NCBI GenBank assembly: GCA_016285185.1
Contig: JAEEQG010000095.1
Coordinates: 1 to 40,010 of the forward strand
DNA: 40,010 bases
Origin: Spirochaetota bacterium
GTDB lineage: Bacteria > Spirochaetota > Spirochaetia > Treponematales > Treponemataceae
Reading direction: 5' to 3'
Below are positions 36,756 through 40,010 of the stretch, one piece after another (positions within the stretch are counted from its first letter, which is position 1; each line of letters begins with the position of its first letter). Made by a program: the position numbers and the translations under genes. Below the pieces are notes generated by a model, which was not told the DNA's origin, made no database searches, and was given only the letters and a program-made list of their open reading frames with translations.

Positions 36756-37535
36756 ATGGCAGAAATGATAGAATGCACCCACTGTAAAATAACAAGAAGC
36801 GAAGATATTTTCAAACAGAACCTGATGGTGTGTCCGGAATGCGGTACACATTTGAGAATGAGTGCCTATGACAGAATCAAATATCTTGCGGATCAGGATT
36901 CTTTTGAAGAACTGTTTGAGAATTTCAAAAGTATTAACCCGATAGAAATGGACGGCTACGAGGAAAAACTGAGTATCGCCGAGAAAAAAACCGCTATGAA
37001 AGATGCTGTTGTTACCGGCAAATGTACAATCGGTGGCAATCCTGTGATTTTGGGAATAATGTCGTTTGCTTTTATGGGTGGCTCAATGGGATCCGTTGTC
37101 GGTGAAAAAATAACGCGTGCAATGCTAAAAGGAGCTGAAGAACGCATTCCTGTTATACTTTATACCACATCAGGCGGAGCGCGAATGCAGGAAGGGCTTT
37201 TTTCGCTCATGCAGATGGCAAAAACTTCAAGTGCTGCGGCTGAAATGGACGAAGTCGGAGTTCCTCTTTTTATAATGCTTTGTGATCCTACAACAGGAGG
37301 AGTAACTGCAAGTTTTGCCATGCTCGGTGATATTATCTGCGCGGAGCCTGGAGCCTTAATCGGCTTTGCGGGTACTAGAGTCATAGAAAGTACAATACGT
37401 CAAAAATTGCCGGAAAACTTCCAGCGTGCCGAATTCCAGCTCCAAAAAGGTTTTGTGGACTGCATTGTACCGCGGAGTGAACAAAGAAATTTTTTTATAA
37501 AAATGATTAAGGCACATTCTTTGGAGGCAAAATGA
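36756..37535 (+). CDS. accD: Acetyl-CoA carboxylase carboxyltransferase subunit beta
   Basis: 259 residues, compact compared with ~300 in E. coli. The N-terminal zinc ribbon has all four Cys (ECTHC near residue 8 and CPECG near residue 27). The crotonase-fold core carries TTSGGARMQEG and DPTTGGVTASFAMLGD. With AccA it moves CO2 from carboxybiotin to acetyl-CoA. GGGAG lies near the end of accC, and accA overlaps its stop by four bases, giving equal expression of the two subunits. Confidence 0.96.
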   Translation: MAEMIECTHCKITRSEDIFKQNLMVCPECGTHLRMSAYDRIKYLADQDSFEELFENFKSINPIEMDGYEEKLSIAEKKTAMKDAVVTGKCTIGGNPVILGIMSFAFMGGSMGSVVGEKITRAMLKGAEERIPVILYTTSGGARMQEGLFSLMQMAKTSSAAAEMDEVGVPLFIMLCDPTTGGVTASFAMLGDIICAEPGALIGFAGTRVIESTIRQKLPENFQRAEFQLQKGFVDCIVPRSEQRNFFIKMIKAHSLEAK

Positions 37536-38449
37536 GCGATATAAATGAAAATATAGTTGTAGAACTGGAAAACTTTGCAAAGGAAAAAGGACTGGATTTT
37601 TCATCAGAACTGGAAAGCATCAGTCAAAAAATAAAAGAACTCCAAACCGCTGCCGAAACAACATGGAAAAAAGTTGAGCTTGCGCGCCATCCGGACAGAC
37701 CCAGAACTTTGGATTATATAGGGCTTATTGTTGATGATTTTACGGAACTGCATGGTGACCGGTTTTTTGGCGATGATCCTGCAATGGTTGGGGGAATCGG
37801 CTTTATTGACGGAATCCCTGTAACCGTTATCGGAAATCAGAAGGGTAGAAATCTTAAGGAAACCGTTGAACGTAACGGAGGAATGTCCAATCCAGAGGGC
37901 TATAGAAAAGCTCTGCGCCTTGCAAAGCAGGCAGAAAAATTCCACAGACCTGTAATCACATTCATAGATACACAGGGAGCTTACCCAGGACAAGGTTCCG
38001 AAGAACGCGGAATCGGTGAATCAATAGCAGTCAATTTGCGGGAATTCAGCAGACTTAAAACACCTGTAATAAGTATCATCATCGGAGAAGGTGGTTCTGG
38101 AGGCGCTCTGGGAATTGGTGTCGGCGATAAAATCTACATGCTCGAAAATTCAATATATTCGGTAATATCTCCTGAAGGTTGTGCTTCAATTCTGCTGCGG
38201 GATGCCTCAAGAGCAAAAGATGCGGCTTCGATGCTCAAGATTACAAGCCGGGAAGTTTTGGATCTGAAAATTATAAACGGAGTTATCCCCGAAAGCGAGA
38301 ACGGGGCTCATACAAATCCTGCTGAAACTGCAAAGTCCATTAAAGCCCGCATTCTTGCGGACTTAAAAGACCTGATGCAGAGAAATCCGAATGTACTTGT
38401 CCGTTACAGGAACAAAAAAATACGAAAATTCGGGCGTTTCCAGGAATAG
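37532..38449 (+). CDS. accA: Acetyl-CoA carboxylase carboxyltransferase subunit alpha
   Basis: 305 residues (E. coli 319). Motifs LARHPDRPRTLDYI, ELHGDRFFGDDPAMVGG, DTQGAYPGQGSEERG and GEGGSGGALGIG define AccA. The N-terminal ~45 residues form a helical hairpin that packs on AccD. TGGAGG stands before the ATG, which overlaps the accD stop (ATGA). It is the last gene of the fab-acc operon. No recognisable terminator lies in the 15 bases before the converging mgtE stop. Confidence 0.96.
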   Translation: MSDINENIVVELENFAKEKGLDFSSELESISQKIKELQTAAETTWKKVELARHPDRPRTLDYIGLIVDDFTELHGDRFFGDDPAMVGGIGFIDGIPVTVIGNQKGRNLKETVERNGGMSNPEGYRKALRLAKQAEKFHRPVITFIDTQGAYPGQGSEERGIGESIAVNLREFSRLKTPVISIIIGEGGSGGALGIGVGDKIYMLENSIYSVISPEGCASILLRDASRAKDAASMLKITSREVLDLKIINGVIPESENGAHTNPAETAKSIKARILADLKDLMQRNPNVLVRYRNKKIRKFGRFQE

Positions 38450-38464
38450 GTACAAAGCCTTTTT

Positions 38465-39841
38465 TCACTTGAATAATAAAGTTTTTGCTATTCCGAAGTA
38501 AACTAAAAGCGACAGTGCGTCAACTGTCGTTGTGATAAACGGACTTGCCATTACTGCAGGGTCAAAGCCCAGTTTTTTTGCGCACAAAGGAAGAATACAA
38601 CCGATTGTTTTGGCTACCAGAACCGTAAGAATCATTGTCAGACATACGGTTAGCGCAACCATTACAGTAACATCGGGGTTGTGCATAAGAATTCGATCAA
38701 CAAGCATAATTTTGCCAAAGCAGACAATCGCAAGAACTGTTCCGCAAAGAAGCGCCGTACCTATTTCCTTTCCTATCGCCTTTGGCAAATCCGAAAAATC
38801 AAGCTCATTAAGCGAGATTGCGCGGATAACTGTTACTGATGATTGAGAACCCGAATTACCACCGGTGTCCATCAGCATCGGGATAAATGCCGTCAGAATA
38901 ACACAGGTAGAAAGTGCAGTTTCAAAGTTTGTAATAATCATTCCGGTAAAAGTTGCTGAAACCATGAGGAGCATGAGCCAGCCGATGCGGTGTTTGAACA
39001 GGTTGAACGGAGATGCGCGCAGATACGTCTTGTCCGACGGGGTCATACCAGCCATGATTTCGATATCTTCCGTAACCTCGTCTTCCATAACTTCGATAGC
39101 ATCATCGAATGAGATGATACCGACGATTCTGTCTTCGTTGTCAACGACAGGCAGTGCCATAAAGTTGTATTTGGAAATGAGCTGGGCAACTTCTTCCTGG
39201 TCGGTGTGTGTTTTTACGCTGATAACGTTTGTTTTCATCAAACTGTCGATTATCTGGTCGTCGTTTTTGGCAAGCAGCAGGTCTTTTACTGAGAGTCGTC
39301 CGATAAGCTTTCTGTTTTCTGTAACATAGCAGGTATAAAAGGATTTTTTGTCTACACCGTTTTTACGTATGTAGTTTATAGCCTGACCTACGGTTGTTCC
39401 ACGATTCAGTGAAACATATTCGGTGGTCATGATTGAACCTGCAGAATTCTCAGGATATTGGAGAATCTGGTTTATATCCTTGCGCATTGAAGCGTCAACA
39501 TGGTTCAAAATTCGCTCAACCACATTCGCAGGCATCTCATCGATCAAATCAACGGCTTCGTTTACGTACAACTCGTTAAGAATGGCAGTCAGTTCTGAAT
39601 CGGAAAAGCCCTTTATCAGCTGTTCCTGAAAATCGCTGTCCATTTCGATGAAGACATCGGCAGCAAGCGATTTTGGCAAAAGCCTGAAAATAACAGGAAT
39701 TAGCTTTTCATCAACGTCCTGAAGGATGGAAGCAACATCTGAAGGCGCCATTGTTGCCAAAACGTCTTTTACGGATGAAAACTTTTTTTCGTCCAATAGT
39801 TTGTGTATTGTTTTTTCAAAAGTAGTTGTCAGTTCTGCCAT
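38465..39841 (-). CDS. mgtE: Magnesium transporter MgtE
   Basis: 458 residues from ATG 39841, which has GGAG seven bases upstream; the ATG at 39847 is too close to that site. Domains in order: a helical N domain (~1-130), two CBS domains (~130-255; IMTTEYVSLNRGTT, SVKTHTDQEEVAQLI), a connecting helix, and five membrane helices (~280-458). The pore motif MLMDTGGNSGSQS and the ion-binding VDALSLLVYFG helix are kept. In known MgtE the cytoplasmic domains close the channel when Mg2+ is high. The leader upstream (39842-40002) is strongly self-complementary and may add RNA-level control. Confidence 0.95.
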   Translation of the reverse strand: MAELTTTFEKTIHKLLDEKKFSSVKDVLATMAPSDVASILQDVDEKLIPVIFRLLPKSLAADVFIEMDSDFQEQLIKGFSDSELTAILNELYVNEAVDLIDEMPANVVERILNHVDASMRKDINQILQYPENSAGSIMTTEYVSLNRGTTVGQAINYIRKNGVDKKSFYTCYVTENRKLIGRLSVKDLLLAKNDDQIIDSLMKTNVISVKTHTDQEEVAQLISKYNFMALPVVDNEDRIVGIISFDDAIEVMEDEVTEDIEIMAGMTPSDKTYLRASPFNLFKHRIGWLMLLMVSATFTGMIITNFETALSTCVILTAFIPMLMDTGGNSGSQSSVTVIRAISLNELDFSDLPKAIGKEIGTALLCGTVLAIVCFGKIMLVDRILMHNPDVTVMVALTVCLTMILTVLVAKTIGCILPLCAKKLGFDPAVMASPFITTTVDALSLLVYFGIAKTLLFK

Positions 39842-39845
39842 AATC

Positions 39846-40002
39846 ATTCTCCGTTAATTGTTTTATTTTAGAGATTTTTTATGGTCAAAGAAATTCGGAA
39901 TCGCCTAGAACTGTTGGGGTAAAGGAGAATCCGTTGTGTTTATGCTTTGACCTGGAGGATATGAGTCATTACTATTCCCGTCCGGCATAACGCTTCTCCT
40001 TT
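39846..40002 (-). promoter_or_regulatory. Self-complementary mgtE leader with alternative Shine-Dalgarno pairing
   Basis: Read as minus-strand RNA, AAAGGAGAA (40002-39994) pairs with UUCUCCUUU (39929-39921). The stem continues CGUU/AACG and AUGC/GCAU with one 6-base bulge, 17 pairs in total, and hides the start of the small ORF. The same downstream element (AUUCUCC, 39930-39924) is also complementary to the mgtE ribosome-binding site GGAGAAU (39852-39846). Two exclusive structures are therefore possible. No match to the known M-box was recognised. Confidence 0.4.
39905..39988 (-). CDS. Possible 27-residue leader ORF upstream of mgtE
   Basis: An ATG at 39988 is preceded by AAAGGAG at the ideal distance and followed by 26 further codons to a TAG at 39905. 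The peptide is polar and Pro-, Ser- and Asn-rich (it ends PLPQQF). A TAA in another frame just upstream would fit the end of a preceding gene. Both the ribosome-binding site and the ATG can be paired with sequence near the end of the ORF. The frame also stays open to the window edge, so it might instead be the C-terminus of a longer gene. It resembles no protein I know. Confidence 0.3.
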   Translation of the reverse strand: MPDGNSNDSYPPGQSINTTDSPLPQQF

Positions 40003-40010
40003 TTAAGTGA

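Follow-up and report, generated by a model that had tools for sequence, protein, structure and literature searches.

A conserved leader of mgtE in Treponema and clostridia, with a coding-constrained small open reading frame and covarying helices, as a candidate translational attenuator

The mgtE gene of the stretch of DNA analysed here (hereafter the window, one whole contig of 40,010 nt that ends at position 40010) is preceded by a leader that we consider, with hardly any reservation, to be real, conserved and specific to mgtE, and to consist of a coding-constrained small open reading frame (small ORF) and covarying helices. As for its function, we lean, with a good deal less assurance, towards a cis-regulatory translational attenuator, in which a helix between the small ORF and the gap upstream of mgtE (H2/H3) would alternate with a hairpin over the mgtE start (H4).

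In the window, the small ORF lies on the minus strand, with its ATG at 39988 and its stop codon ending at 39905, and it begins 147 nt upstream of the mgtE AUG at 39841 (Table 1). The positions that a preliminary description of this DNA had given for the ribosome-binding site (RBS), ATG and stop codon of the small ORF, for the element complementary to this RBS (anti-RBS) and for the mgtE AUG were all confirmed. This mgtE encodes the sole full MgtE found in its own genome. Two ORFs on the plus strand (36756-38449), which look like acetyl-CoA carboxyltransferase subunits (beta and alpha), converge on it. The contig ends only 8 nt beyond the small-ORF RBS; in another genome, G333, two contigs (L103, L125) terminate in, and share, one leader, and assemblies seem to break at this leader. 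A second copy of the leader in G333 (L125) was rejected as such, being the contig end that repeats the L103 leader.

Table 1. Coordinates of the leader elements and of mgtE in the window
Feature	Position	Strand	Basis
Small ORF (27 codons and stop), MPDGNSNDSYPPGQSINTTDSPLPQQF	39905..39988	-	Kept in 71 leaders; synonymous-only variation at several codons in relatives
Small-ORF RBS AAAGGAGAA, 5' strand of H1 (region 1)	39994..40002	-	Fold; H1 z -12.9 in 71 leaders
Anti-RBS ATTCTCCTTT, 3' strand of H1 (region 3), within the end of the small ORF	39921..39930	-	Fold, shuffles, 71 leaders
GGUCAAAG, 5' strand of H2 (region 2)	39945..39952	-	Best helix for L003; H2/H3 z -12.2 in 71 leaders
CUUUGACC, 3' strand of H2 (region 4)	39883..39890	-	Best helix for L003; 71 leaders
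CCAUAA and UCUCU, forming the 5' side of H4 and sharing bases with the end of the H2 3' strand	39870..39884	-	MFE fold; H4 z -6.9 in 71 leaders
mgtE RBS (GGAG, 39852-39849) with the AUG (39841-39839), together the 3' side of H4 (region 5)	39838..39852	-	Fold; 71 leaders
mgtE (Mg2+ channel/transporter)	38465..39841	-	Pfam MgtE_N, two CBS, MgtE

Relatives of mgtE were gathered from 148 genomes around the window and from GTDB contigs. The core set comprises 71 distinct leaders, of which Treponema contributed 27 and gut and rumen clostridia 44. Their leader peptides are 21-34 residues long; examples are MPDSSTCDSYPGQSRIKLSPYLNF (L005) and MGDGSSTGSYPGKYLLKLLLPIRSFLF (L034) in Treponema and MDGGSSTGTSAGRSKPHIRPVCAFPVKR (L103) in the clostridia. 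Outside the 71 are the near-duplicates L004, L033, L036, L037, L040, L041 and L116, the divergent leaders L064, L086, L108 and L112 together with L149 (whose mgtE N-terminus is absent), the loci L114, L131, L132, L062, L075, L091, L092 and L093, about 19 further clostridial leader loci and the leaders of distant spirochaetes. The coding, ribosome-model and strand-masking analyses used an earlier set (n = 62). A named cultured carrier of the leader is Treponema berlinense ATCC BAA-909 (L040). As regards the concern that the small ORF could be the C-terminus of a long upstream gene, a close relative (L004, MgtE 96% identical) has a leader peptide identical to that of the window, and its sequence runs on upstream, which rules out that the small ORF is only the end of a longer gene.

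The association with mgtE was also seen in searches by leader sequence. The covariance model R1, which was built from 21 clostridial leaders without any mgtE sequence, gave 4 matches among 274 Treponemataceae genomes, the genome of the window being one of those missed (the model is clostridia-built and has a lossy first search stage); in 295 genomes of a clostridial order it gave 11 matches, including the training leader L048. All 14 of the other R1 loci directly precede mgtE (in L114, an mgtE without its N-terminus). A Treponema sequence pattern matched 20 of the 274 genomes, while the reversed control pattern matched 0, and each of the 20 matches precedes mgtE (L149 being the same place as L114). 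A clostridial sequence pattern matched 1 of 391 genomes of the class, so either the leader is uncommon in the class or the pattern is too strict. At L114/L149 (G257:C1), the match of the mgtE downstream of the leader does not start until about residue 75, reflecting either a deletion or a misassembly. The mgtE match of L007 (G005:C80) carries one in-frame TAA, and the leader gap there is 135 nt long and has repeats, unlike its near relatives.

The pattern of substitutions is that of a coding sequence, and the small ORF looks translated. In the 27 clostridial leaders with equal spacing, codons 2 (GAC/GAT), 4 (GGN), 12 (GGN) and 14 (AGT/AGC) change only synonymously, and the mean entropy at codon positions 1, 2 and 3 is 0.49, 0.57 and 0.89, respectively; codon 3 of 19 Treponema leaders is GAT in 15 and GAC in 4. 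ATG, GTG and TTG all serve as starts, and all three stop codons are used. In the set of 62, no stop codon interrupts the frame as far as the end of the anti-RBS in 15/18 Treponema and 39/44 clostridial leaders; the corresponding counts are 7/18 and 28/44 for frame +1 and 0/18 and 8/44 for frame +2.

Every one of the 71 peptides has an Asp or Glu as its second or third residue, and only 11 of them have an acidic pair at most one residue apart within the first 10 residues. Within the first 14 residues, Pro is present in 25 of the 27 Treponema peptides and absent from 33 of the 44 clostridial ones. Charged prolyl-tRNA, which the preliminary description had offered besides magnesium as the signal, is hence not a general one, and the conserved Pro codons expected of a proline-codon attenuator were not found across the 71 leaders. 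We also considered that the conserved peptide start (D-x-G-S-S-x-G, SYPG or GRS) might stall the ribosome on a signal other than Mg2+, as a nascent-peptide arrest sequence or an amino-acid attenuator. The conservation of this start across two phyla and an invariant CGA at codon 13 in 27/27 clostridial leaders would suit such an arrest, but the peptides have no run of a single amino acid, most clostridial ones have no early Pro, as just given, and the controlled gene is a Mg2+ transporter gene in all cases, and we regard this reading as quite improbable.

The leader RNA was described as five regions in the following order: the small-ORF RBS (region 1), codons 4 to about 15-16 of the small ORF (region 2), the anti-RBS (region 3), the gap strand (region 4) and the mgtE RBS with its AUG (region 5). 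The proposed pairings are 1:3 (H1), 2:4 (H2/H3) and 4:5 (H4), of which 2:4 and 4:5 would be mutually exclusive. In an alignment of 21 clostridial leaders made with MAFFT without structure (A1), H1 and H2/H3 comprise 34 pairs, and 91% of the cells are paired, against 36-52% when the strands are slid; changes on both sides were found at 12 pairs, and 0 of 500 shuffles reached the covariation score. The loop AGUA between the two helices is conserved.

For all the 71 leaders, each 5' side was paired with its own 3' side and with permuted ones, and the duplex energies were compared. H1 had an energy of -15.16 with its own sides and -11.74 with permuted ones (z -12.9), and H2/H3, which joins the first half of the small ORF to the gap before mgtE, of -29.02 and -22.77 (z -12.2); for H4, between the gap strand and the mgtE RBS and AUG, z was -6.9. 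These z values are inflated by relatedness to some degree; the pairing of the anti-RBS with the mgtE RBS and AUG, taken from the same sequences, stays near zero (z +0.5, 3490 of 5000 permutations as low) and hence serves as an internal control. When permutation was restricted to within phyla, z was -11.1 for H1, -9.7 for H2/H3, -5.3 for H4 and +0.2 for the control. In Treponema alone, the group of the window itself, the values were -6.9 for H1, -4.8 for H2/H3 and -1.5 for H4, the last not significant (351/5000); in the clostridia alone they were -8.8, -8.4 and -5.2, respectively. Thus 1:3 and 2:4 covary in both phyla and 4:5 in the clostridia. In 11/27 Treponema and 22/44 clostridial leaders, H1 ranks among the top 2% when compared with shuffles of itself, and H4 covers the mgtE start too in some clostridia, e.g. 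L074 (UGUCGGUUUUUC with GAAAAACCGAUG). In a Treponema subgroup (L015, L137, L138, L143), the gap strand AGCCUGUC fits, by eye, GGCAGGCU, in the small ORF just before the anti-RBS; judging from these sequences, H2 seems to have moved there, away from codons 4-15.

The MFE fold of the window leader contains the long stem at the small-ORF RBS, although the whole-leader fold is barely better than shuffles (z -1.59, 16/200 as good). Of 500 dinucleotide shuffles of its 3' strand, a single one was as good as H1, so that the stem hiding the small-ORF RBS, which the preliminary description had drawn, was borne out in the window as well as by the covariation in related leaders. The MFE fold also contains the H4 hairpin, in which CCAUAA (39884-39879) pairs with UUAUGG (39843-39838) and UCUCU (39874-39870) with GGAGA (39852-39848). 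H2/H3 and this hairpin are pairings that the earlier description had missed. In the window alone, H2 was matched by 78/500 shuffles and H4 by 27/500, i.e. not or barely above chance, hence the support for both is the comparative evidence.

The same data bear on the switch that had been proposed from the window, in which the single element at 39930-39921 would pair with either the small-ORF or the mgtE RBS, the choice being set by Mg2+ or charged prolyl-tRNA. The letters are indeed complementary, but the pairing with the mgtE RBS does not covary, 159/500 shuffles of the window were as good as it, and Pro is not general in the peptides. This reading appears to us most improbable. What also stood of the earlier proposal is the idea that translation of the small ORF may control mgtE; the alternative that covaries is that between H2/H3 and H4.

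In the translational attenuator that we favour, ribosomes translating the small ORF well would cover region 2, leaving region 4 free to shut mgtE through 4:5 (OFF). If the small ORF were not initiated, or if translation were aborted in its first codons, 2:4 would form and release mgtE (ON), and H1 would then hold the small ORF silent. Since 1:3 and 2:4 have no strand in common, the ON state may be a pseudoknot acting as a latch, a topology that nested folding cannot assess. We infer this ON/OFF logic, the latch and, by analogy with Salmonella mgtL and mgtQ, the action of low Mg2+ on the ribosome through the acidic peptide start; low Mg2+ as the signal is suggested by the controlled gene and by the likeness to these two. 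Sensing of the MgtL type would imply that ribosomes drop off in low Mg2+ and that bL31/EttA counteract this loss.

The effect of the two alternative strands on the mgtE start was modelled in the set of 62. When the 3' strand of H2/H3 was taken up and the 5' part of the ORF was covered, the unpaired fraction of the mgtE RBS and AUG increased from 0.260 to 0.417, going up in 52/62 leaders and down in 9/62; in the control, with a neighbouring block masked, it was 0.259 (9 up and 7 down of the 62). For Treponema alone, taking up this strand gave 13 up and 4 down of 18 (p 0.12). With a modelled ribosome on codon 6, 9 or 12, the openness of the mgtE start decreased from 0.327 to 0.264-0.267, being lower in 28-29 and higher in 5-6 of the 62 leaders, with no clear effect in those of Treponema. 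The folding model thus points to an mgtE output that falls when the small ORF is well translated.

The promoter scan covered the leaders with enough upstream sequence, the window itself ending too early. A sigma-70-like site was found upstream of the small ORF in 22/26 Treponema and 40/43 clostridial leaders (62/69 in total), against 5.9 and 4.0 expected from mononucleotide shuffles, respectively. A separate mgtE promoter within the leader was rejected, with gap sites in 2/69 leaders (Treponema 2, clostridia 0) against 4.2 expected (2.6 and 1.6). As for a start of mgtE transcription downstream of 39905, the promoter-like sites of the relatives lie before the small ORF and not in the gap. The scan of L004, however, gave a 9-of-12 promoter match in the gap and, on the same strand, none ahead of the small ORF.

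A different output for the same leader and helices would be transcription termination, intrinsic or through Rho, coupled to translation of the small ORF as at mgtA/mgtL. In L005 and L006, H2/H3 is followed by a U-run in a terminator-like arrangement, and MgtL works through Rho according to the available part of PMC11282234. At least 4 T right after H2/H3 were found, however, in only 6/27 Treponema and 3/44 clostridial leaders (9/71), hence an intrinsic terminator is not general; moreover, L004 has no terminator-like site, and the conserved H4 points at the mgtE start. We consider termination as unlikely, although a reading to be kept in mind beside the translational one.

Beyond the core set, other spirochaetes have short ORFs before mgtE with stronger acidic/Pro motifs, namely MDDPDGSTDYHIRQY (L026, L029, L032), MNDSDGPGSSQPPEP (L170), MTDSDGPGSQPPEP (L171), MPDSDVDASQPPDP (L172), MPHSDVDSSQPPEP (L175) and MNDSEGPGSQPPEP (L166), and peptide starts with DDPD or PPEP occur among these distant relatives; weaker-motif ORFs precede mgtE in L157, L160, L167 and L174. 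In one set of 20 such regions the ORFs were chosen by eye in nine, and none was visible in 11. The motif SQPP[ED]P, which comes near to MgtL's EPDP, is common to L166, L170, L171, L172 and L175, where H1 is mostly not significant. Among 11 distant spirochaete leaders, H1 was strong in L026 and L032 (0/500 shuffles each), moderate in L160 (13/500) and without significance in the remaining eight (37-275 of 500), hence hiding of the RBS is not general in the distant spirochaetes.

In a tree of 92 MgtE, the leader-bearing genes of Treponema form, together with four leaderless ones, a group of 30 (support 100/99), which sits among leader-bearing clostridial genes when the tree is rooted at its midpoint; this root is for drawing only, and some deep forks are weakly supported. 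On the sequences compared, this suits a transfer of mgtE together with its leader, followed by some losses (L013, L016, L042, L043). In the Treponema with a more distant MgtE (L017, L018, L024, L030) we found no such leader and no Rfam match.

At the gathering score, Rfam had no match in the window and, in 40 loci, none except one tRNA in L069; the M-box (ykoK) model matched neither the window nor 20 leader-bearing loci. That no known riboswitch is recognisable here, as first reported for the window, therefore holds for the leader-bearing loci scanned too. Ten leader peptides had no match in NCBIfam and one match in Pfam, under the cut-off (E 0.3). Nonetheless, the RNA itself might sense Mg2+ or another ligand through an H1/H2/H3 pseudoknot, the ORF being secondary: both helices and the AGUA loop are conserved, the topology is that of a pseudoknot, and the gene is that of a Mg2+ transporter. 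A riboswitch is nevertheless improbable in our judgement, since the codons vary synonymously, the kinds of start and stop vary while the frame is kept, the distant spirochaetes keep acidic/Pro peptides with an H1 mostly not significant, and Rfam gave no match.

No family in Rfam, Pfam or NCBIfam matched the leader; it resembles the Salmonella mgtQ/mgtL leaders and would be a cross-phylum variant of that kind. It was undescribed in the literature searched, and a latched ON state was described there for no other Mg2+ leader; this search left most subscription papers and all preprints uncovered. According to the available part of PMC8092293, Salmonella mgtQ is an 8-codon ORF before mgtB, with Asp2 and Glu5 and with alternative stems, one of which hides the mgtB RBS, and less translation of mgtQ gives more MgtB. 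Both leaders have a short ORF with a strong RBS before a Mg2+ transporter gene, an acidic residue near its start and alternative stems, predicted ones in the case of mgtE, of which one hides the transporter RBS; that less small-ORF translation gives more transporter was established by experiment for mgtQ, and we infer it for the mgtE leader. As described in the same source, mgtQ differs in being an 8-codon ORF within an enterobacterial operon, ahead of a P-type ATPase gene, while the mgtE leader has a separate promoter-like site, an RBS hidden by H1, a long helix from the ORF to the gap, and occurs in spirochaetes and clostridia.

The likeness to MgtL, which had been noted from the window, holds for the presence of a leader peptide and for the acidic/Pro starts of the distant spirochaetes, while a close acidic pair occurs in only a minority of the core peptides (11 of 71). 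In the portions of text available (PMC11282234, PMC11552253), MgtL loses ribosomes at EPDP in low Mg2+, and an acidic pair in close spacing is linked to ribosome destabilisation (PMC11282234). The enterobacterial mgtL (the mgtA leader) is thus alike in its acidic/Pro start, EPDP against DDPD or PPEP in the distant spirochaetes, and in its alternative structures; it differs, by the same portions, in acting through Rho-dependent termination and in its peptide sequence, unlike the present ones as far as compared (PMC11282234, PMC11552253). Two leaders of mgtE itself are also to be considered. The mgtE motif of Thioalkalivibrio, compared by description only, is likewise a structured RNA upstream of mgtE in which the RBS and AUG of the gene take part, but it is a riboswitch candidate of one genus, and the passage on it describes no small ORF (PMC11109978). 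In Mycobacterium abscessus a ribosome-protected short ORF likewise precedes mgtE, but it coincides with an M-box, of which we found none here, and is called a VcgB homologue (PMC4974804).

A more specific and, in our view, tentative proposal is that of a portable switch that moved with mgtE between Clostridia and Treponema, in which the ribosome would be the Mg2+ sensor, and its failure on a peptide of 21-34 residues would let H1 and H2/H3 form a pseudoknot latch, silencing the small ORF and keeping the mgtE start open. The translation-based Mg2+-sensing leader ORFs in the literature found, as far as its accessible parts go, are those of enterobacterial mgtA, mgtCB and corA. Were a conserved ORF of this kind to act on mgtE in two further phyla, the same principle would have arisen for another transporter family, and the natural variants, with DDPD or PPEP starts against a single Asp, may tell what a nascent chain needs for a Mg2+-sensitive ribosome.
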